Shown one piece after another: positions 42,169 to 54,893 of a stretch of DNA of 64,000 nt (positions are counted from its first letter, which is position 1; each line of letters opens with the position of its first letter). The notes under the pieces are model-generated. The model searched no databases. It saw only the letters and a program-made list of their open reading frames with translations, and was not told the origin of the DNA. Made by a program: the position numbers and the translations under genes. The stretch comes from Rhizobium sp. 18065 (lineage in GTDB: Bacteria > Pseudomonadota > Alphaproteobacteria > Rhizobiales > Rhizobiaceae), in NCBI RefSeq assembly GCF_902706095.1, contig NZ_CACSJP010000001.1:248001-312000 (forward strand), given 5' to 3'.

Positions 42169-42930
42169 TCACGAACTGCTTTCCAGCCGGTAGCGACTGC
42201 CGGGATAGAGAAGCCTGACGGATGTGACGATCCGATCCGCCGACCATGTGCGCCGCCGGATCAGCAGGCAGGGCTCCGAGCGGGCAATCGACAGATGTTT
42301 GCATTCCCACGGCTGCGGCAGCACCGCCTCGACAAACTGTTCCGTATGCGAGATCGGCGCTATGCGGGTCAGGTAGGCGTTCGGCGTGATCGCCTGAAAA
42401 TCCTGGCCGAGATAGTCGGGCGCCACGGCCGGATTGACGAAACGGTCCTCGAGTTGGATCGGCACTTCGTCCTCGTGATGCAGGATAACCGAGTGAAACG
42501 CCGATAGCCCGACCTCGATGTTCATCGCCTCGGCAAGCTCGTGGCCGCAAACTTCGGTCTGGGCAAGGATGACCTGTGCCGTATGGATCGCGCCGCGCTC
42601 GTTGATCTCGTCGGCAATGTTGCGAACGCCCATGAAGGGAGCGCTGCGCTTCTTGGTCGCGACGAAGGATCCGCGCCCCTGCACACGCACGATCACGCCT
42701 TCGCTCGCCAGTTCGCGCAAGGCACGATTGGCCGTCATCCGGCTGACATTCAGGGTTTCGGCAATCTCGTTTTCCGACGGAACGCGATGATGCGGTGGCC
42801 ATTCGCCGGTTTCGATCCGCTTCTTGATGTCGGCCTTCAGGCGCTCGTAGAGCGGAATGTCGCGCGCGCCCCCAGTTTGGCCTGCTGCAGTCCGGCCCTC
42901 AGCCTCGATCGTCCGGTCGCCTTCGGCCAT
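42169..42930 (-). CDS. hutC: Histidine utilisation repressor HutC
   Basis: A 253-residue GntR/HutC-type repressor. The winged helix-turn-helix (about residues 25-95) contains VPSENEIAETLNVSRMTANRAL and GVIVRVQGRGSFVA. The UTRA ligand-binding domain follows (GHELAEAMNIEVGLSAF, LEDRFVNPAVAPDYL). In known systems urocanate binds HutC and lifts repression of hut genes. The ATG at 42930 has a strong GGGGAGA upstream; ATGs at 42957 and 42963 lack one. It is divergent from hutF, placing its likely operators in 42931-43066. Confidence 0.95.
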   Translation of the reverse strand: MAEGDRTIEAEGRTAAGQTGGARDIPLYERLKADIKKRIETGEWPPHHRVPSENEIAETLNVSRMTANRALRELASEGVIVRVQGRGSFVATKKRSAPFMGVRNIADEINERGAIHTAQVILAQTEVCGHELAEAMNIEVGLSAFHSVILHHEDEVPIQLEDRFVNPAVAPDYLGQDFQAITPNAYLTRIAPISHTEQFVEAVLPQPWECKHLSIARSEPCLLIRRRTWSADRIVTSVRLLYPGSRYRLESSS

Positions 42931-42958
42931 GCTCGGTTCTCCCCGTCGTTCCGTCATG

Positions 42959-42975
42959 TGCATACAAAATACGCA
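42959..42975. promoter_or_regulatory. Candidate HutC operator
   Basis: The 17-bp element TGCATACAAAATACGCA has matching TGCxTA and TAxGCA ends around an AT-rich centre, in the hutC-hutF intergenic region. A second similar half-site (TATACAACTTG) lies at 43042-43052, near the hutF start. Known HutC sites are AT-rich palindromes with TGTATA/TATACA cores, so both are reasonable but unproven. Confidence 0.35.
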
Positions 42976-43066
42976 TCGGAAATAAAGCACAAAGTTTTTG
43001 CGAGCCTACTTGCCGCTTTTCAAAAACTCTGCCATCTTCCCTATACAACTTGCTAAGGTTACGCAA

Positions 43067-44437
43067 ATGACGGCGGCTCGCTCTCTCCTCTGCAAACAGA
43101 TATTGCTGCCGCAAGGCTGGGCATCGGACGTCTTGGTGCGCGTTGGCGACGATGGCAGCATTGTCGCGATCGAAATCGGTTCCGACGATGTTCCGCATCT
43201 GGAGCGCATCAGTGGCCCGGTCGTTCCGGCCCTGCAAAACCTGCACTCACACGCATTTCAACGCGCCATGGCCGGTCTCGCGGAGCTGGCCGGGTCTACC
43301 GACGACAGTTTCTGGACCTGGCGCGACGCGATGTATCGGCTTGTCGGGCGAATGTCGCCGGACGATATCGAGATTGTCGCAACAAAGTTGTATAGTGAAC
43401 TACTGAAGGGTGGCTTCGGCCACATCGTCGAGTTTCACTATTTCCATCATGCTGCCGGCGGTCGTCGCTATGGTAATGTGGCCGAGACATCCCTGCGGAT
43501 CCTGCGTGCGGCGCAAGCGTCTGGCATCGGCCTGACCCATCTGCCGGTCTTCTACGCACATGCCGGTTTCGGCGGCACGGAGCCGGGCGAGGGGCAGCGT
43601 CCCTTCATTCATGATGTCGATCAGTTTCTGGGCCTGCTGGATGCGCTGAAGCCTGAGTGTGATGCCGTGGGCGCTACCCTCGGCTTGGCCATTCATTCGC
43701 TGCGGGCAGCGACGCCGGATGAAATGCGCACCATCCTGTCGGCCGAAAAGACCGGCGGCCCGATCCATATACACGTCGCCGAACAGGAGCGGGAGGTCGA
43801 GGATTGCCTCGGCTGGAGCGGCCGTCGGCCGGTTGAATACCTGCTCGATGAAATGCCGATGGACGCACGCTGGTGCGCCATCCACGCGACGCATATGACG
43901 CCGGATGAAACGGCACGGCTGGCACGGTCCGGTGCGGTGGCAGGCCTTTGCCCGGCAACCGAAGCCAATCTTGGCGACGGAATTTTCCCGGCGACCGATT
44001 ATGTCGGCCATGGCGGCGCGTTCGGTATCGGTACCGACAGCCATATTGCAACGACCGTTGCCGAAGAATTGCGCCTGCTCGAATATGGCCAAAGGCTGCG
44101 TGACCGCCGCCGCAACCGTCTGGCAAGCGGCCCCGGCGCATCCGTTGGCCGAACCCTGTTCGATGCGGCTCTGAACGGTGGCGCACAGGCTGCCGGCATG
44201 CGCACCAGCGGCATTCGCGTCGGCGCGCGTGCCGATCTAGTGGTTCTCAACGACGACAATCCGTTCATCGGCACGGCATCGGGCGATCAGGTTCTCGATC
44301 GCTGGCTGTTTGCCACCGGCAATGACGCCGTGCGCGATGTGATGGTCGGCGGCCGGTGGGTGGTCCGTGACGGTCGACATCACAACGAGGAAACAATTGA
44401 TCGCGATTTCCGCGAGGTGCTTCTGCGGCTCGCTTAG
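43067..44437 (+). CDS. hutF: Formimidoylglutamate deiminase
   Basis: A 456-residue amidohydrolase that converts N-formimino-L-glutamate to N-formyl-L-glutamate and ammonia, the fourth step of the five-step histidine route. Metal-binding landmarks are LQNLHSHAFQRAMAG (HxH near residue 57), IHIHVAEQEREVEDC, and the late GTDSHIA Asp. The FWTWRDAMY stretch is typical of HutF. The ATG at 43067 is the family-like start (AGG eight bases upstream). It opens the hut operon, divergent from hutC, with the hutX ATG 47 nt after its stop. Confidence 0.95.
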   Translation: MTAARSLLCKQILLPQGWASDVLVRVGDDGSIVAIEIGSDDVPHLERISGPVVPALQNLHSHAFQRAMAGLAELAGSTDDSFWTWRDAMYRLVGRMSPDDIEIVATKLYSELLKGGFGHIVEFHYFHHAAGGRRYGNVAETSLRILRAAQASGIGLTHLPVFYAHAGFGGTEPGEGQRPFIHDVDQFLGLLDALKPECDAVGATLGLAIHSLRAATPDEMRTILSAEKTGGPIHIHVAEQEREVEDCLGWSGRRPVEYLLDEMPMDARWCAIHATHMTPDETARLARSGAVAGLCPATEANLGDGIFPATDYVGHGGAFGIGTDSHIATTVAEELRLLEYGQRLRDRRRNRLASGPGASVGRTLFDAALNGGAQAAGMRTSGIRVGARADLVVLNDDNPFIGTASGDQVLDRWLFATGNDAVRDVMVGGRWVVRDGRHHNEETIDRDFREVLLRLA

Positions 44438-44484: not shown

Positions 44485-45522
44485 ATGCTGAATGCCAAAC
44501 TGAAATATACACTTCTTGCCACGGCTCTGATGCTCGGCGGCTCCGCCATGAGTGCCAGTGCCGCGTCCTATTGCGCCGACGGCAAGACCGTCACCTTCGC
44601 CGGAATCGACTGGGAAAGCGGCGCGCTGATCACCGAAGTGATGAAGGAGATCCTGTCGAAGGGCTATGATTGCAAGGTGGATTCGATCCCCGGCAATTCG
44701 GTGACGCTGGAGCAGGCGACCGCCAACAATGACGTACAGATCTTTGCCGAGGAATGGATCGGCCGTTCCGACGTCTGGAACAATGCCGCGGCGGCCGGTC
44801 AGGTGACGTCGGTCGGCAAGACCTTTGTCGGCGCAGCCGAAGGCTGGTTCGTGCCCGAATATCTCGTCAAGGGTGACGAAGCCCGCGGCATCAAGGCCGC
44901 AGCCCCTGATCTGAAGAGCGTTTCGCAGCTGTCCGATCCGAAGTTCGTCGAACTCTTCAAGGATCCGGAAGAGCCTTCCAAGGGCCGCTTCCTCAACTGC
45001 CCGTCCGGCTGGACCTGCGAAGGCGTCAACTCCGCCAAGCTCGAGGCCTACAAGCTGACGGATGCCTATGTGAATTTCCGTCCGGGCACCGGCACCGCGC
45101 TCGATGCAGCGATCAGCTCGGCCTATCTTCAGGGCGAGCCGGTGCTGTTCTACTACTGGAGCCCGACGGCCGTGATGGGCAAGTTCAAGCTGGTTCAGCT
45201 TGAAGAGCCGGCTTACGATGAGGCCTGCTGGAAGGAACTGACAAGCGCCACCGGCAAGCGTGAAGCCGGCTGCGCCTTCCCGGCGGTCGAGGTCGCCTAC
45301 GGGGTCAACAGCACGTTCGCCAAGGAAGCGCCGGAGATTATCGAAATTCTCTCCAAGGCAACATTCCCGCTGGACGACGTCAATGCCAGCCTCGCGTACA
45401 TGACGGATGAAAAGGCCGATGCGGTTGCCGCCGCCAGCCAGTTCCTCAAGACCAAGGGCGACGTCTGGGGCGCCTGGGTTTCTGCCGATGCCAAAGCGAA
45501 GATCGAAGCTGCGCTGAAATAG
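44485..45522 (+). CDS. hutX: ABC transporter periplasmic binding protein HutX
   Basis: A 345-residue binding protein of the OpuAC/ProX class (glycine-betaine/proline/histidine group). The signal peptide is cut near residue 26 (MSASA, then ASYCADG). The mature protein includes IDWESGALITEVMKEILSKG and several aromatic residues for a quaternary-amine or imidazole cage (AEEWIGR, PVLFYYWSP). In Sinorhizobium, HutXWV imports histidine and proline betaine. A stem-loop directly after the stop (45529-45558) may let this protein be made in excess over the membrane parts. AAAGGGG precedes the ATG. Confidence 0.92.
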   Translation: MLNAKLKYTLLATALMLGGSAMSASAASYCADGKTVTFAGIDWESGALITEVMKEILSKGYDCKVDSIPGNSVTLEQATANNDVQIFAEEWIGRSDVWNNAAAAGQVTSVGKTFVGAAEGWFVPEYLVKGDEARGIKAAAPDLKSVSQLSDPKFVELFKDPEEPSKGRFLNCPSGWTCEGVNSAKLEAYKLTDAYVNFRPGTGTALDAAISSAYLQGEPVLFYYWSPTAVMGKFKLVQLEEPAYDEACWKELTSATGKREAGCAFPAVEVAYGVNSTFAKEAPEIIEILSKATFPLDDVNASLAYMTDEKADAVAAASQFLKTKGDVWGAWVSADAKAKIEAALK

Positions 45523-45629: not shown

Positions 45630-46487
45630 ATGTTTCCCGACGCCTTCCATATCTCCATCCGCGGGCCGATCAACGATGCGGTCCAGGCGCTGGTGGTCAA
45701 TTACGGCTTTGTCTTCAAGGCTATCTCGCAGACCATTCTGCAGGCCATTCTGTTCATCGAATGGATCGTCCGTGGTCTGCCATGGTGGCTGATGATCATC
45801 GCCTTCATGGCACTGACATGGCAGGCAACCCGCAAGGTCACGCTTGTCGCGACCGTTGCCGTTCTGCTGTTTGCCATCGGCGCGCTTGGTCTCTGGGATC
45901 TGGCCATGCAGACTTTGGCGCTGATGTTGATGGCGACACTGATTTCGGTGGCGATCGGGGTGCCGGTCGGCATCTGGCTGGCCAAGAGCCGACTGATGCG
46001 CAGCATCACGCTGCCGGTACTCGACGTCATGCAGACGATGCCGAGCTTCGTCTATCTTATTCCCGCGATCATGCTGTTCGGTCTCGGCAAGGTGCCGGCC
46101 GTCCTGGCAACCATTGTCTATGCCGTGCCGCCGCTGATCCGCCTGACGGATCTCGGCATCCGCCAGGTCGACAGCGAGGTTGTCGAGGCGGCAACTGCCT
46201 TTGGCGGCAGCCCGCGGCAGATCCTGTTCGGCGTCGAGCTTCCTCTGGCCACGCCGACGATCATGGCCGGGCTGAACCAGACGATCATGATGGCGCTTTC
46301 CATGGTCGTGGTCGCGTCGATGATCGGTGCCCGCGGTCTTGGCGAGCAGGTCTTGAACGGCATTCAGACGCTTGATGTCGGCAAGGGACTGGAAGCGGGC
46401 CTCGGCATCGTCATCCTCGCCATCGTGCTCGATCGTATCACCCAGGGCTTCGGCCGCTCCAGCCAGGAGGATGGCCAGAATGGCTGA
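45630..46487 (+). CDS. hutW: ABC transporter permease HutW
   Basis: A 285-residue membrane permease of the OpuAB/ProW type, with about six helices. The binding-protein-dependent transport signature lies in the loop EAATAFGGSPRQILFGVELP (EAA-x-x-x-G). The N-terminal segment and IARDITLPLLD-like core (RSITLPVLDVMQTMPSFVYL) are typical. It forms the membrane channel of the HutXWV importer. AAGGA lies about eight bases upstream of the ATG at 45630. The end overlaps hutV by 8 nt. Confidence 0.94.
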   Translation: MFPDAFHISIRGPINDAVQALVVNYGFVFKAISQTILQAILFIEWIVRGLPWWLMIIAFMALTWQATRKVTLVATVAVLLFAIGALGLWDLAMQTLALMLMATLISVAIGVPVGIWLAKSRLMRSITLPVLDVMQTMPSFVYLIPAIMLFGLGKVPAVLATIVYAVPPLIRLTDLGIRQVDSEVVEAATAFGGSPRQILFGVELPLATPTIMAGLNQTIMMALSMVVVASMIGARGLGEQVLNGIQTLDVGKGLEAGLGIVILAIVLDRITQGFGRSSQEDGQNG

Positions 46488-47310
46488 GATTGAAATCCAC
46501 AATGTCTACAAGATCTTCGGCCGCAATTCGCAGGAAGCGCTCGTAATGGCGCGCGGGGGTGCGGAGAAGAGCGAGATCCTCGAGCGCACCGGATGCAGCG
46601 TCGGTCTGAACGATATCAGCCTGAAAATCGGCGCGTCGCGTATCTTCGTCATCATGGGCCTGTCGGGATCGGGCAAGTCGACGCTGGTGCGCCATATCAA
46701 CCGGCTGATCGAGCCGACCAGCGGCGAGATCCTCGTCGATGGCGGCAACGTGCTTGATCTTGGCCCGCGCGATCTGCGCGAGTTCCGGACCCGCCGGGTC
46801 AGCATGGTGTTCCAGAGCTTCGGCCTGATGCCGCACCGGACCGTGATGCAGAACGTCGTTTACGGCCAGCGGGTTCGCGGGTTGAGCAAGGCCGATGCCC
46901 ATCCCATCGGCATGAAATGGATCGAGACGGTCGGCCTGCTCGGCTACGAGAACAAATACCCGCATCAGCTCTCGGGCGGCATGAAGCAGCGCGTCGGTCT
47001 GGCCCGTGCGCTGGCGGCAGACACCGACGTGATCCTGATGGACGAGGCCTTTTCGGCGCTCGATCCGCTGATCCGCAGCGACATGCAGGACCAGTTGCTG
47101 CAGCTGGAAAAGAACCTGTCAAAGACGATCGTCTTCATCACCCACGATCTCGACGAGGCACTGCGTATTGGTGCCGAGATCGCGATCCTCAAGGATGGCA
47201 GGCTGGTTCAGGTCGGTACGCCGAGCCAGATCCTCAATACACCGGCGGATGACTATGTCGCCCGTTTTGTCCAGCGTCGTGCCGGCGCGGAGGTGGCGCA
47301 GCATGGCTGA
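46480..47310 (+). CDS. hutV: ABC transporter ATP-binding protein HutV
   Basis: A 276-residue ATPase of the OpuAA/ProV type. It has the Walker A GLSGSGKST, Q-loop MVFQSFGLMPHRT, signature LSGGMKQRVGLARAL, Walker B DVILMDEAFSALDP and the switch His in FITHDLDEAL. It lacks the C-terminal CBS domains of ProV/OpuAA and ends soon after the core. The ATG at 46480 (AGGAGG about nine bases upstream) is preferred to that at 46471. It overlaps hutW by 8 nt and the HAL-like gene by 8 nt, so it is embedded in one transcript. Confidence 0.94.
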   Translation: MAEIEIHNVYKIFGRNSQEALVMARGGAEKSEILERTGCSVGLNDISLKIGASRIFVIMGLSGSGKSTLVRHINRLIEPTSGEILVDGGNVLDLGPRDLREFRTRRVSMVFQSFGLMPHRTVMQNVVYGQRVRGLSKADAHPIGMKWIETVGLLGYENKYPHQLSGGMKQRVGLARALAADTDVILMDEAFSALDPLIRSDMQDQLLQLEKNLSKTIVFITHDLDEALRIGAEIAILKDGRLVQVGTPSQILNTPADDYVARFVQRRAGAEVAQHG

Positions 47311-48811
47311 TCGCATCATTCTCGATGGTGCCCTGGACTGGCAGGACATCGCGACCGTTGCAAACGGAGCGGAACTCGTTCTGTCCGCGGCGACGTGGAG
47401 CCGCATTGATGCCGCGCGGGCCATCGTCGACGCACTGGTGGAACGCGAGATCCGCGGCTATGGCATCAACACCGGCGTCGGCGCACTCTGCGATGTAATC
47501 ATCAGTCGCGCGGATCAGCAGACCCTGTCGCGCAACATCATCCCCAGTCATGCCTGTGGCGTTGGCGAGCCGCTGGGCAAGGCGGAGACGCGCGCGGTGA
47601 TGGCCGCGCAGATCGCCAATTTCGCCCACGGCTATTCCGGCGTCAGCAGGCCGGTGGTCGAGACGCTTCTGGCGCTGCTCAATGCCGATATGCTGCCCAT
47701 CATCCCGTCGCGCGGCTCGGTTGGATATCTGACCCACGCCGCCGCCATCGGCCTCGTGCTGATCGGTGAGGGCGAATGCCGCCATGGCGGCACGTTGATT
47801 TCCGGCAGCGAGGCTCTCGACCGGCTTGGCCGGGTGCCGCTCGCCCTGCAGGCCAAGGAAGGCCTCAGCCTTGTCAACGGCACGCCCTGCGCCACCGGTC
47901 TCGGTGCGCTTGCCGTGTCGCGTCTCTCCCATCTGGCCGATTGGGCCGATGCTGCCGCCGCGATGACCTATGAGAACCTTGGCGCCCAGTCCGATCCGTT
48001 TGCCGAAATGCCGCTGGCGCTTCGCCACTCGCCCGGCCTGCAACAGGTCGGCCGTAATCTGCGCCAATGGCTCGCGGGCAGCGCGCTTCTGGCGCAATCG
48101 GCAGGAAGCCGCACCCAGGATCCGTTGAGCCTGCGCGCTGTGCCGCAGATCCATGGCGCCGTGCGCGATGCCTTGGTGCATGTTGCAGACGTCGTCGATC
48201 GGGAACTGGCCAGCGTGACGGACAACCCGGTCGTCGCCGGATCGCCGGAGGCGCCCGAAGTGCATTCGCAGGCGCATGCCGTGGGAGCCGCACTCGGTCT
48301 CACGATGGACAGCCTCGCGACCGCTGCCGCAGAACTCGCAGCGATTTCCGAACGCCGGATCGACCGTTTGGTCAATCCGCTGGTCAGCGGATTGCCGGCC
48401 TTTCTCGCGGCTGGAAGTGGCGTATGCTCCGGTTTCATGATCATTCAATATACCGCAGCCGCCCTCGTGGCGGAAAACCGGCGGCTGGCAGCACCCGCCA
48501 GCCTCGATGGCGGCATCACGTCGGCGCTGCAGGAGGATATCCTGACCCATGCGACGCCCGCCGCCGACAAGGCCTTGGCGATCCTCGGCAACTTGCAGAC
48601 CATTCTGGCCATCGAAGTCATGGCGGGGGCCCAAGCCTACGACCTGCAGTCAGGTTCGGCAGACAAGGCAAAGCGGACTGCAGCACTTTATCAGCGCGTC
48701 CGCCAGAATGTACCCTTCTACCGCGACGACCGGCCGCTCAACGCCGAGGTAGCCAAGGTTCGTGCGATGATCGGTATCCTGTCGGCACAGCTGGACGGAG
48801 ACGCACGATGA
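47303..48811 (+). CDS. HAL/PAL-family paralogue lacking the MIO triplet
   Basis: A 502-residue relative of histidine ammonia-lyase in the middle of the hut operon. YGINTG begins at residue 53 in both this protein and the neighbouring HutH, and both proteins then run 89 residues without a gap to GSVG (138-141). HutH continues Ala-Ser-Gly-Asp-Leu, whereas this one continues Tyr-Leu-Thr-His. From there to KEGL-x-L-x-NGT it is exactly three residues shorter, so the triplet that forms the MIO cofactor appears cleanly deleted. The QDP, Arg, and QED positions are kept; the NFH near residue 329 of HutH is QAH here. Rhizobial hut loci often carry such a second gene called hutH2. It overlaps hutV (8 nt) and hutI (4 nt). 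Its activity is unknown. Confidence 0.9.
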
Positions 48812-50028
48812 AAACGTTGCTGTGCAATGCAAGACTGGCGACGCTGGCGCCCAATCTTCCGGGCCTCGGCATCATCGAGGATGGTGCCATCCTGATAGAA
48901 GACGGCCGCATCGCCTATGTCGGTCACGCGGTCGATGCGCCGACCGATGGCGCGGCCACAATGGTGGATTGCCAACGCCGGTGGATCACGCCGGGCCTGA
49001 TCGACTGCCACACGCATCTCGTCCATGCCGGCAATCGCGCACGGGAATTCGAGATGCGTCTGGCCGGCGCCTCCTATGAGGAAATTGCCCGTGCCGGCGG
49101 CGGCATCGTCTCGTCGGTGCGCCAGGTGCGGGATGCAAGCGAGGCCGATCTGGTTGCTGAGACTTTGCCGCGCCTCGATGCCTTGATCGCCGAAGGGGTG
49201 ACCACGGTCGAGGTTAAGTCCGGTTACGGCCTGGCGGTCGAGGCCGAATTGAAGATGCTGCGCGCGGCGCGGTCTCTGGGCGACCAGCGTCCGGTCAATC
49301 TCACCACCACCTATCTCGGCGCCCATGCGACACCGGCCGATTACAAGGGCCGCAATGGCGATTTCATTCGCGATGTGGTCCTGCCCGGTCTGGAAGCCGC
49401 CCATGCGCAAGGGCTCGTCGATGCCGTCGATGGTTTCTGCGAAGGCATTGCCTTTTCGCCTGCAGAAATGCGCGTGGTTTTCGATGCGGCCAAGGCGTTG
49501 GGTCTGCCGGTCAAGCTGCATGCCGACCAGTTGTCCAATCTGCATGGGGCAGCGCTGGCAGCAAGCTATGGCGCGCTCTCGGCCGATCATCTGGAATATA
49601 CCGACGACGAGGGCGCGGCGGCCATGACCCGGGCCAGCACCGTCGCCGTCCTTTTGCCGGGCGCCTATTATTTCATTCGCGAAACGAAGAAGCCGCCAGT
49701 CGAGCTGTTCCGCAAACATGCAACAAAAATGGCGCTCGCCACCGATTGCAACCCCGGTACATCGCCACTGACCTCGCTGCTTTTGACGATGAACATGGGT
49801 GCGACGCTGTTTCACCTCACCGTCGAGGAATGCCTCGCCGGCGTCACGCGAGAGGCGGCACGGGCGCTCGGACGCCTGGAGACAATCGGCACGATAGAGA
49901 CCGGCAAGCAGGCCGATCTCGCCATCTGGAACGTCGAGAGCCCGGCCGAGCTGGTCTATCGCATCGGTTTCAATCCGCTGCATCAACGGATCTGGAACGG
50001 GAAAATTACCGGAGGACGTCACTCATGA
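48808..50028 (+). CDS. hutI: Imidazolonepropionase
   Basis: A 406-residue metal-dependent amidohydrolase, full length. It opens its ring substrate, 4-imidazolone-5-propionate, to formiminoglutamate. The HxH metal ligands are in [14 protein letters not shown], with further ligands in [16 protein letters not shown] and [12 protein letters not shown]. The VKSGYGL and [17 protein letters not shown] segments are diagnostic of HutI. The ATG at 48808 overlaps the stop of the HAL-like gene by 4 nt, and its own stop overlaps the hutH start by 4 nt (ATGA), so both junctions are translationally coupled. Confidence 0.97.
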
Positions 50029-51560
50029 CCATCACGCTTCATCCCGGCAGCGTATCGCTGGCCGAACTGGCGAATATTTACTGGAACAGCGAAAGCGTCG
50101 TGCTTGACCGCAGATTCGACGCGGGCATTGAACGCGCCGCCGCCCGCATCGCCGCGATCGCTGCCGGCAACGAGGCCGTCTATGGCATCAATACCGGCTT
50201 CGGCAAGCTCGCCTCGATCAGGATCGATGCGGCCGACACCGCGACGCTGCAGCGCAATCTGATCCTGTCGCATTGCTGTGGCGTCGGCCAGCCGATGCCT
50301 GAAAACATTGTCCGCCTGATCATGGCGCTGAAGCTGATCTCGCTTGGCCGTGGCGCGTCCGGCGTGAGGCTCGACCTGGTGCGCCTGATCGAGGGCATGC
50401 TGGACAAGGGCGTGACGCCGCTGATCCCGGAAAAGGGCTCGGTCGGGGCGTCGGGCGATCTGGCACCGCTTGCCCATATGGCGGCCGTGATGATGGGTGA
50501 GGCGGAAGCTTTTTATCTGGGCGAACGCCTTTCCGGTGGCGTGGCGCTTGAGCGGGCAGGCCTCAAGCCGGTCGTACTGGCCGCCAAGGAAGGGCTGGCG
50601 CTGATCAACGGCACGCAGGCCTCGACGGCTCTGGCACTCGCCGGTCTTTTCCGCGCCCATCGTGCGGCCCAGGCAGCGCTGATCACCGGCGCGCTGTCGA
50701 CCGACGCGGCCATGGGCTCCTCGGCGCCGTTCACCGCCGATATCCACACATTGCGCGGCCACAAGGGCCAGATCGACACCGCCGCCTCACTGCGCGGCCT
50801 GCTGGCCGGTTCGGTGATCCGCGAAAGCCATCTTCAGGGTGACGAGCGCGTGCAGGACCCTTATTGCATCCGCTGCCAGCCGCAGGTCGATGGCGCCTGC
50901 CTCGATTTGCTGCGCATGGCGGGTCGTACGCTTGAGATCGAAGCCAATGCGGTCACCGACAATCCGCTTGTACTCTCCGACGACAGTGTCGTTTCCGGTG
51001 GCAATTTCCACGCGGAACCTGTGGCCTTTGCCGCCGACCAGATCGCCATCGCGGTCTGCGAAATCGGCGCCATTGCCCAGCGCCGCATCGCGCTTCTGGT
51101 CGATCCGGCGCTGTCCTATGGCCTGCCGGCGTTTCTCGCCCGCAAGCCGGGCCTGAACTCGGGCCTCATGATCGCGGAAGTCACCTCGGCTGCGCTGATG
51201 AGCGAAAACAAGCAGATGTCGCATCCGGCTTCGGTCGACTCGACTCCGACATCGGCCAATCAGGAAGACCATGTTTCGATGGCCTGCCATGGCGCTCGCC
51301 GCCTGCTGCAGATGACGGAAAACCTGTTCTCGATCATCGGCATCGAGGCCCTTACGGCAGCGCAGGGCGTGGATTTTCGCGCGCCCTTGACCACCAGCCC
51401 CGAATTGCAGAGGGCGGTTTCCACCTTGCGCACTGTTGTCGCCACGCTGGACGAGGATCGCTTCATGGCGCCGGATCTGGCTGCGGCCAGCGCCCTGGTG
51501 GCGGATGGCTCGCTGGTGGCGAGCGTTTCGGATGGCTTGTTGCCGGGACTGGAGGGTTGA
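50025..51560 (+). CDS. hutH: Histidine ammonia-lyase
   Basis: A 511-residue canonical HutH. The catalytic MIO group forms from Ala142-Ser143-Gly144 in [14 protein letters not shown], and Tyr53 is in YGINTGFG. The substrate residues are in [20 protein letters not shown] and [11 protein letters not shown]. It deaminates L-histidine to trans-urocanate, the entry step and the source of the HutC inducer. GGAGG lies upstream of the ATG at 50025, which overlaps the hutI stop by 4 nt. After its stop the operon is interrupted by a large inverted repeat (51580-51725) before hutG. Confidence 0.98.
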
Positions 51561-51753: not shown

Positions 51754-52560
51754 ATGACGTTCGAAGTCACACAAGGCAACTCGCCGGTCATTCTCGCCTT
51801 TCCGCACACGGGCACCGAAGTCCCGCCCGCGATCTGGAGCCGGCTGAATGACAACGGCCGCATGCTGGCCGATACCGACTGGCATATTCATCAGCTCTAC
51901 GCAGGTCTCCTGCCGAACGTGACGACGGTGCGCGCCACCTTCCATCGTTATGTCATCGACGCCAATCGCGATCCGACCGGCACGAGCCTCTACCCCGGCC
52001 AGAACACCACCGGGCTGGTGCCTGTGACGGATTTCGATGGGGTGCCAATCTGGGCCGAAGGCGAAGAGCCGTCGGAATCCGATGTCGAACATCGGTTGAG
52101 AACGTTCCACGAGCCCTATCACGCGGCGCTGCTGGCGGAGATCGAACGGGTCAAGGCAATTCACGGCGTGGCTGTTCTCTACGACTGCCACTCGATCCGG
52201 TCGTTGATCCCCTTCCTGTTCGAAGGCCAGCTGCCGGATTTCAATATCGGCACGGACATGGGGCGGACCTGCGATCCGCGCATCGAGGCCGCCGCAGCAG
52301 AGGTCGCCCGCGCGGCCGAAGGTTGTACGTCGATCGTCAACGGCCGCTTCAAGGGCGGCTGGACCACCCGACACTACGGACAGCCACAGGATGGCGTTCA
52401 TGCCATCCAGATGGAACTGTCGCAGATATCACACCTCACCACCGAAGAGCCGCCCTTCGCCTATGACGACGAGAAGGCAGGGCGGCTGCGCATTCACCTG
52501 AACCAGATCCTGGCACGCATCGAAGCCGTTGCGGATCAACTGAAGACCAAGGGGAACTGA
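51754..52560 (+). CDS. hutG: N-formylglutamate deformylase
   Basis: A 268-residue N-formylglutamate amidohydrolase that releases glutamate and formate, the last step of the route that uses HutF. It starts [23 protein letters not shown] and contains [24 protein letters not shown] and [10 protein letters not shown], which supply the expected metal and active-site His, Asp and Glu residues. It shows HutF and HutG acting in sequence, as opposed to the direct formiminoglutamase route. The ATG at 51754 follows the RIME-like repeat; no strong ribosome-binding site is evident, only GGGGTGG nearby. hutU begins 1 nt after its stop. Confidence 0.95.
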
Positions 52561-52561
52561 G

Positions 52562-54247
52562 ATGACCAATCCACGCCACAACATCCGCGACGTGCGCTCG
52601 CCGCGCGGGACCGAGCTCAACGCCAAGAGCTGGATGACCGAAGCGCCCTTGCGCATGCTGATGAACAACCTCGATCCCGATGTCGCGGAAAACCCGCATG
52701 AACTGGTGGTCTATGGTGGCATCGGCCGCGCCGCCCGCACCTGGGAGGATTTCGACCGCATCGTCGCGACGCTGAAGACGCTGACCGAGGAGGAAACGCT
52801 TGTCGTGCAGTCCGGCAAGCCGGTCGGCGTTTTCCGCACCCACAAGGATGCGCCGCGTGTGCTGATCGCCAATTCCAACCTCGTGCCGCATTGGGCGACC
52901 TGGGACCATTTCAACGAACTGGATAAGAAGGGTCTCGCCATGTACGGCCAGATGACCGCCGGTTCGTGGATCTATATCGGCACCCAGGGCATCGTTCAGG
53001 GTACCTATGAGACCTTCGTGGAAGCGGGTCGTCAGCACTACGGTGGCAACCTCACGGGCAAGTGGATCCTGACCGGTGGCCTCGGTGGCATGGGCGGCGC
53101 CCAGCCGCTTGCCGCCGTCATGGCCGGCGCCTGCTGCCTTGCCGTCGAAAGCGACGAAACCCGCATCGATTTCCGCCTGCGCACCCGTTACGTCGATGAA
53201 AAGGCAAAGACGCTCGACGAAGCGCTTGAAATGATCGACCGGTGGACCAAGGCGGGTGAAGCCAAGTCCGTCGGCCTGCTCGGCAATGCCGCAGAGGTCT
53301 TCCCGGAACTGGTCAAGCGCATGCAGGCCGGCGGCCCACGCCCTGACATCGTCACCGACCAAACCTCTGCCCATGATCCGCTCAACGGCTATCTGCCGAT
53401 CGGCTGGACGGTTGCCGAGCACAAGGCCAAGCGCGAAAGCGATCCGAAGGCCGTCGAGGCTGCCGCACGCGCGTCGATGAAGAGCCATGTCGAGGCCATG
53501 GTTGCCTTCTGGGATGCCGGCGTGCCGACGTTCGACTATGGCAACAATATCCGCCAGGTCGCCAAGGAAGAGGGCCTTGAAAATGCCTTCGCCTTCCCGG
53601 GATTCGTACCGGCCTATATTCGCCCGCTGTTTTGCCGCGGTATCGGACCGTTCCGCTGGGCGGCGCTGTCGGGCGATCCGGAGGATATCTACAAGACGGA
53701 TGCCAAGGTGAAGGAACTGACGCCGGGCAACACCCATCTGCACAACTGGCTGGACATGGCGCGGGAGCGCATCGCCTTCCAGGGACTGCCGGCGCGCATC
53801 TGCTGGGTCGGCCTCGGTGACCGTCATCGTCTGGCGCTGGCCTTCAACGAAATGGTCAAGAACGGCGAACTGTCTGCGCCCGTGGTCATCGGCCGCGATC
53901 ATCTCGACAGTGGCTCGGTGGCCTCGCCAAACCGCGAGACCGAAGCGATGAAGGACGGCTCGGATGCCGTGTCCGACTGGCCGCTGCTGAATGCCCTGCT
54001 CAACACGGCGTCTGGCGCCACCTGGGTGTCGCTGCATCACGGCGGCGGCGTCGGCATGGGCTTTTCCCAGCATTCGGGCGTGGTCATCTGCGCCGACGGT
54101 TCCGACGATGCCGCCAAGCGGCTGGAACGGGTGCTGTGGAACGATCCGGCGACCGGTGTCATGCGCCACGCCGATGCGGGCTACGAGATCGCGCTTGATT
54201 GCGCCAAGGAAAAGGGCCTGCGCTTGCCGGGCATTCTCGGCAACTGA
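52562..54247 (+). CDS. hutU: Urocanate hydratase
   Basis: A 561-residue urocanase, the normal length. It hydrates urocanate to imidazolonepropionate, using tightly bound NAD+ as an electrophile. Diagnostic regions are the N-terminal [24 protein letters not shown] and [16 protein letters not shown] for NAD binding, plus the active-site [15 protein letters not shown] with the essential Cys. [17 protein letters not shown] and [15 protein letters not shown] also mark the family. It begins 1 nt after hutG. A perfect 10-bp stem-loop directly follows its stop, ahead of hutD. Confidence 0.98.
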
Positions 54248-54254
54248 GCCTGTC

Positions 54255-54280
54255 ATGGCGCCGCGACTGCGGCGCCATTT
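54255..54280 (+). terminator. Stem-loop between hutU and hutD
   Basis: ATGGCGCCGC (54255-54264) and GCGGCGCCAT (54269-54278) form a perfect 10-bp stem with loop GACT, starting 8 nt after the hutU stop. Only two T follow, so termination is likely partial. It probably lowers hutD expression or stabilises the upstream transcript. Confidence 0.6.
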
Positions 54281-54299
54281 GCGTTCAAGAGGGATAGCA

Positions 54300-54893
54300 A
54301 TGCCGTCGTCACCAGTCCTGCTGAAACCGTCCGACTATCGCCGCATGCCGTGGAAGAACGGTCTGGGCGAAACGATCGAGATCGCCGTTTTTCCGCCAGA
54401 TGCAGGCATCGGTGATTTCGACTGGCGGATCAGCATGGCGACGGTTGCCAGCGATGGTCCGTTCTCGCTGTTTCCGGGGATTGAACGCACGCTGTCGGTT
54501 CTGACGGGAGAGGGGCTCACGCTGCACCGTTCAGACGGCACCCGGCAGGACCTGAGGGTCGACAGCACACCCTATGCGTTTCCCGCAGACGAACAGGTCA
54601 GCGCGACGCTCGTGAATGGTGCGATTGCCGATCTCAACGTCATGACCCGGCGCGGTCGCTTCGTGCACAGGGTCGAGCGCCTTCTGCTTGACGGCGGTAT
54701 CACGATGCCGTCCAGACAGAATACGGTCCTGCTCTTCTGCCTCGAAGGACAGGCAAGGCTGGGTCAAGGCGACACGTCAGTGCCGCTCGTAGCTGGCGAA
54801 AGCAGGCTTTGCGATGGGGCTTGCCCTTCTACTGCACTCTCCGGGCAGGGCATCATCTTCATCATCGATCTTGTCGTGGCCAACAGCATCTGA
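54300..54893 (+). CDS. hutD: HutD-family protein
   Basis: A 197-residue HutD/Ves-type cupin. The family N-terminus is clear (SDYRRMPWKNGLGETIEIAVFP), followed by FDWRISMATVASDGPFSLFPGIERTL, a bicupin beta-barrel. HutD binds formylglutamate or urocanate in Pseudomonas and has been proposed to act as a governor that sets an upper limit on hut expression. AAGAGGG is well placed before the ATG at 54300. Last gene of the hut operon, separated from hutU by a 52-nt gap with a stem-loop. Convergent with the FMN reductase gene. Confidence 0.93.
   Translation: MPSSPVLLKPSDYRRMPWKNGLGETIEIAVFPPDAGIGDFDWRISMATVASDGPFSLFPGIERTLSVLTGEGLTLHRSDGTRQDLRVDSTPYAFPADEQVSATLVNGAIADLNVMTRRGRFVHRVERLLLDGGITMPSRQNTVLLFCLEGQARLGQGDTSVPLVAGESRLCDGACPSTALSGQGIIFIIDLVVANSI

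Follow-up and report, generated by a model that had tools for sequence, protein, structure and literature searches.

In histidine ammonia-lyase (HAL), the MIO electrophile makes the amino group of the substrate a leaving group; a trimethylammonium group can leave without MIO. Hercynine (N-alpha-trimethyl-histidine, also called histidine betaine) is made by fungi and some bacteria. There is a precedent for a HAL relative devoid of MIO, namely ergothionase (PDB 6s7j), which releases trimethylamine (PMC13405746). The window analyzed here, a stretch of 64,000 nucleotides from Rhizobium sp. 18065, carries in its histidine utilization (hut) operon a HAL-family gene, P0001, in addition to canonical hutH (Table 1). 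Like the ergothionase of Treponema denticola (PDB 6s7j/6s7q), P0001 has the HAL fold without the MIO triplet and keeps the equivalents of Tyr53, His83, Gln277, Arg283 and Glu414, with Leu in place of Tyr280. Unlike it, P0001 is three residues short at the MIO site, where ergothionase is one residue short (SSIG-EG-D), and it has QED and Asn where ergothionase has IED and a Ser at the position of Asn195; the two proteins share 27% identity and lie on different branches of the tree. P0001 resembles HutH in identity (34-39%), fold, operon, and imidazole- and carboxylate-binding residues, but differs from it by the absence of ASG, D145, Y280 and F329 and by scores under the HutH cut-offs. We infer that P0001 is probably a working MIO-independent trimethylamine-lyase of the HAL fold, converting hercynine to urocanate with hutXWV as importer; activity, substrate, importer ligand and mechanism are all part of this inference.

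A HutH paralog without the Ala-Ser-Gly triplet

The alignment of P0001 with the HutH of the same operon is gap-free from Tyr53 to Gly141 in both proteins, after which HutH reads ASG-DLAP and P0001 reads YLTHAA. The counterpart of HutH Asn195 is Asn192 in P0001, an offset of 3 residues, and P0001 is still 3 residues shorter at the KEGL-x-L-x-NGT segment. This confirms the first-pass annotation, which had claimed the exact loss of Ala142-Ser143-Gly144 in 47303-48811 and a paralog shorter by three residues until that segment. The same annotation had correctly placed the gene between hutV and hutI with overlapping ends (by 8 bases and 4 bases, respectively), but its description of HutH as adjacent does not hold, since hutI separates the two genes. 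No HutH-type triplet was found in P0001. Profile searches of its own genome assign P0001 to the aromatic amino-acid lyase fold (PF00221, 500.6 bits) and leave it below both HutH cut-offs (454.1 vs 539.15 bits for TIGR01225, 468 vs 524 for NF006871), while many public records call such MIO-less proteins "hutH: histidine ammonia-lyase". Three HAL-family genes are present in this genome: P0001, HutH and P0003, the latter located on another contig and also devoid of ASG.

Table 1. Features of the hut operon in the window
Feature	Position	Strand	Remarks
hutC, GntR-type regulator, divergent	42169..42990	-	relatives annotated histidine utilization repressor
hutF, formimidoylglutamate deiminase	42998..44437	+	start codon approximate
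hutX, OpuAC-type (betaine) substrate-binding protein	44485..45522	+	Pfam PF04069 6.9e-59
hutW, permease	45630..46487	+	PF00528
hutV, ATPase	46474..47310	+	start codon approximate
P0001, MIO-less HAL-family lyase, proposed hercynine trimethylamine-lyase	47303..48811	+	502 aa, start ATG 47303
GSVG-YLTH codons (residues 138-145), site where Ala-Ser-Gly is absent	47714..47737	+	P0001/HutH alignment
hutI, imidazolonepropionase	48808..50028	+	
hutH, canonical HutH, comparison protein, ASG at 142-144	50025..51560	+	731 bits vs NCBIfam cut-off 524
hutG, N-formylglutamate deformylase	51754..52560	+	start approximate
hutU, canonical urocanate hydratase	52562..54247	+	
hutD	54243..54893	+	start approximate

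Active site and predicted structure

Residue conservation was counted in 119 aligned sequences selected by the GSxG-YL motif, using HutH numbering. The equivalents of Q277, R283, Q413 and E414 are present in all 119, those of Y53 and H83 in 118 (the odd one is probably a truncated ORF, L026) and that of N195 in 117. The alignment thus indicates that the whole imidazole- and carboxylate-binding set (Tyr53, His83, Asn195, Gln277, Arg283, Gln413-Glu414) is retained, which bears out and extends the earlier remark that several active-site residues are kept. Tyr142 and Leu143 (P0001 numbering) also occur in 119/119 sequences, the set itself having been chosen by that motif. Other positions have changed consistently: Tyr280 is replaced by Leu in 119/119 and Phe329 by Ala in 117/119 or Gly in 2/119, and Asp145 was lost in the P0001 family along with ASG142-144. 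The earlier claim that MIO cannot form at its usual place is supported, and these further MIO-linked residues are lost as well. Structures of D145A and F329G variants of Pseudomonas putida HAL exist, as their titles indicate, and we take Asp145 and Phe329 of this enzyme to be required for MIO formation. The one-residue-deletion proteins that were compared have Leu at Tyr280 too, but Ile, Val or Leu at Gln413.

The predicted model of P0001 (pLDDT 92, pTM 0.92) matches over nearly its full length both HAL 1eb4 (Foldseek E 8.8e-36, TM 0.93) and ergothionase 6s7j (Foldseek TMq 0.90). The structure alignment comprised 53 of the 56 prepared rows, three loci from annotated plasmids being left out.

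Fixation of the deletion, selection and phylogeny

The motif GS[VAIM]GYL is found in 117/117 ORFs of at least 350 aa matching P0001 best (101 of them distinct), gathered from named-genome loci, 151 genomes of the family, annotated plasmids and 8 further genomes or records. The scan of named genomes yielded 95 P0001 relatives; the counts below use 80 of these loci, the other 15 lying outside them. Conversely, ASG is present in 36 of the 37 ORFs matching HutH best, the exception being an Acidisoma protein (L128) with the three-residue deletion. The deletion is therefore fixed among the relatives examined, and a sequencing or assembly error is ruled out by its occurrence in all 117. P0001 evolves under purifying selection, with a dN/dS of 0.093-0.119 against 6 orthologs, compared with 0.032-0.067 for HutH at the same 6 loci. 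This ratio of about 0.1 also rules out a decaying gene, and only 1/80 named loci looks frameshifted. The latter, L113, is a plasmid copy in Rhizobium sp. 32-5/1 that appears split into two overlapping ORFs and stands outside the 117; the same genome also holds a subfamily-2 copy (L104).

The three-residue group (support 99/89), the ASG group (100/100) and the one-residue group (100/100), which consists of ergothionase, P0003 and others, each occupy one branch side in a tree of 66 rows, where P0001 lies outside the ergothionase-type branch. When two MIO aminomutases and the protein of a Klebsiella plasmid (see below) were added in a 30-row tree, support for the three-residue group dropped to 63/78 and that for the one-residue group stayed at 100/100. 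All MIO-less rows fall there on one side with a support of 67/78 (not starred), and several end branches are long. Given the fall from 99/89 to 63/78, the MIO-less forms may have had one origin or two.

Importers and gene neighborhoods

The closest solved relatives of HutX are binding proteins of the glycine betaine/proline type (7yle, 3.5e-35), and the majority of HutX tryptophans fall on tryptophans in 7yle; some tryptophans line the ligand cage in the OpuAC-type fold. HutXWV of Sinorhizobium meliloti transports histidine but takes betaines as well, so the presence of hutXWV alone does not demand a betaine. The association with these genes is widespread: hutX, hutW and hutV all lie within 5 kb in 54/80 named loci, and 44 of these 54 (44/80) have neither hutU nor hutH within 7 kb, some retaining hutF or hutD nearby. 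Four of the 80 loci (L036, L037, L084 and L099) have hutU without hutH within 7 kb, and the genomes of the first three carry an ASG HutH elsewhere. An Aureimonas plasmid (L115) likewise shows the row hutC, hutF, P0001 relative, hutI, hutG, hutU, hutD, with hutU and without hutH.

None of the tested hut genes was found at 6/80 loci, including L048, L065 and L069. On a plasmid of Rhizobium daejeonense (L119 8003-14755), a P0001 relative stands beside genes annotated as fatty acid desaturase, cytochrome c, 2Fe-2S protein and molybdopterin oxidoreductase, a neighborhood that L048 and L065 probably share.

Twenty family loci were compared with 20 canonical HutH loci, both being the top rows of the 151-genome scan and not a random draw. 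A betaine-type binding protein, belonging to either of two different importer types, lies within 6 kb in 8/20 family loci vs 0/20 HutH loci (Fisher p 0.003), a difference to be read knowing that the binding-protein queries came from MIO-less loci, which favored finding them there; the profiles of these proteins had no match in the 20 control loci. Polar amino-acid binding proteins were found within 6 kb in 11/20 family loci vs 1/20 controls, 5 of the 11 also having solA (N-methyl-tryptophan-oxidase-like), and a single family locus of the 20 has neither importer. Subfamily 2 (L116, L118, L174-L186; 54-61% identity) is mostly coupled to an ABC importer of the polar amino-acid type, with solA following at several loci. 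A further MIO-less type, one residue short (GSIGAADL), adjoins hutC and a gene for a glycine-betaine binding protein on pRL12 of Rhizobium johnstonii (L146 5983-7488).

A distant MIO-less relative (motif GSVGYLIATAH) was also identified on a plasmid of Klebsiella pneumoniae (OW849440.1, cluster L142 3479-10533), annotated as a histidine or aromatic amino acid ammonia-lyase. It lies 3' of an OsmV/OpuBB/OpuBB/OpuCC importer, and genes for urocanate hydratase and, beyond it, imidazolonepropionase are on the opposite strand. At least 80% of this stretch is present in 164 plasmid records, and any match occurs in 265 records, of which 192 are from Klebsiella. A hercynine route would predict this combination, another betaine importer together with a distant MIO-less lyase and genes of the urocanate pathway, and this cluster may be a hercynine utilization island.

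Urocanases, ergothionase-type cluster and alternative substrates

The window operon contains ordinary hut genes only, and no neighbors of the ergothionase-type thiourocanate pathway were found in it. Its HutU is 77-92% identical to the HutU of Klebsiella L142, Tistrella, Pseudogemmobacter, Aureimonas and Rhizobium NFR07, a range that includes L036, L084, L099, L115 and Klebsiella L142, and its identity to the HutU of a Leisingera operon that has an ASG HutH is 84%. Against the urocanase adjoining P0003 and the one from plasmid pAt of Agrobacterium tumefaciens Ach5, identity falls to 49-51%. As judged from these comparisons, the product of P0001 is most likely plain urocanate. P0003, which is one residue short at the MIO site, lies in a cluster (L141 1462-9940, G000:C3) with the divergent urocanase, a PF06032/PF20906 S-Me-THD protein, an M20 hydrolase and an amidohydrolase, a gene set that matches the bacterial ergothioneine pathway. 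It is a probable catabolic cluster for ergothioneine or S-methyl-ergothioneine, and this composition together with the divergent urocanase suggests that ergothioneine is handled elsewhere in this genome than at P0001.

These data make it rather unlikely that P0001 is an MIO-independent lyase for another histidine-type betaine, such as ergothioneine, ergothioneine sulfonate, S-methyl-ergothioneine or an N-methylated histidine other than hercynine, since its partner in the window and in the compared loci with hutU but not hutH is a canonical HutU, the operon around it is an ordinary one and the genome has a separate ergothionase-type cluster. What speaks for such a substrate comes from relatives, solA adjoining several subfamily-2 genes and a HAL-like gene on Ach5 pAt (L117 1-10494) being 60% identical to P0001 with the same 3-residue deletion and residue pattern. 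As in the window, an XWV-type importer lies directly upstream of the Ach5 lyase gene, but where the window has HutU/I/G, the Ach5 cluster has the divergent urocanase together with a molybdopterin S/N-oxide reductase, an amidohydrolase and a Zn hydrolase. This cluster may represent an ergothioneine-sulfonate pathway, its lyase being possibly the ergothioneine-sulfonate lyase named in a 2022 ACS Catal. title. Finding a relative of 60% identity in such a different cluster makes a change of substrate within the family probable. Substrates may differ by subfamily. Both the polar-importer subfamily, some members of which have solA nearby, and the Ach5 relative may act on N-methylated compounds that are related to, but distinct from, hercynine.

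Alternative functions

The first-pass annotation had offered three functional options, of which a different chemistry fits best, while a pseudoenzyme bound to HutH and a ligand sensor are both disfavored. A catalytically dead relative, serving as a sensor of histidine or urocanate or as a regulatory subunit of HutH, would account for the loss of MIO in a HutH paralog and for a dN/dS somewhat above that of HutH. We consider it very unlikely, because catalytic Tyr53 and the binding residues are nearly invariant, some hut operons carry the gene instead of hutH, the importer is present while hutU and hutH are both absent within 7 kb at 44/80 loci, and other MIO-less types adjoin catabolic genes as well. 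The strictly kept residues and the hut operons where the gene replaces hutH argue specifically against a pure sensor. An obligate HutH partner is disfavored by the same 44/80 loci and by Pseudogemmobacter humi, whose PF00221 search gave two genes, a P0001 relative in a hut operon and a P0003-like gene; the HutH query matched the same two only, so that no canonical HutH was found in this genome, the completeness of which is unreported.

The P. humi gene content, the location in a hut operon and the retention of the tested histidine-ring and carboxylate residues would also suit an MIO-free histidine ammonia-lyase performing the HutH reaction by another mechanism. Such an enzyme is highly improbable: to our knowledge no chemistry releases the primary amine of histidine in the absence of MIO, the family is linked to betaine importers, and all 23 of the 151 genomes of the family that hold a close P0001 relative also hold a second HAL-family match that scores like HutH (220-248 bits, judged by score alone). 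Finally, a displaced or alternative prosthetic group elsewhere in P0001, for which the only argument is that the fold persists along with most active-site features, is scarcely credible given that the D145, Y280 and F329 equivalents are gone together with ASG.

Proposed hercynine route and its implications

For hercynine as the substrate, the following sequence of events can be proposed. HutXWV would import hercynine, which P0001 would bind by means of its conserved residues for the imidazole ring and the carboxylate; a base, Tyr53 or an equivalent, would take the beta-proton, and trimethylamine would depart to leave urocanate, which HutU, HutI, HutF and HutG would break down. Because a quaternary amine leaves unaided, the MIO electrophile, an activator of primary amines, would not be needed. 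The best reading, drawn by analogy, is that P0001 would work like ergothionase but on the sulfur-free betaine hercynine. More broadly, we lean slightly towards the existence of a dedicated and so far unrecognized hercynine route, in which a betaine importer and an MIO-less lyase yield urocanate and trimethylamine, common in rhizobia, where the gene goes by the name hutH or hutH2, and present on Klebsiella plasmids in a form with another importer and a distantly related lyase. A literature search covering titles and the beginnings of abstracts, which is no proof of absence, returned nothing on hercynine catabolism or on the chemistry of rhizobial hutH2.

If this route is real, many genes annotated as histidine ammonia-lyase would encode something else, and the family would illustrate how a cofactor can be dropped when the substrate brings its own leaving group. 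It would also account for the fact that the histidine operon of some rhizobia retains a betaine-type transporter along with two genes resembling hutH, and it would provide a fate for hercynine in soil and the rhizosphere as well as an additional bacterial source of trimethylamine.
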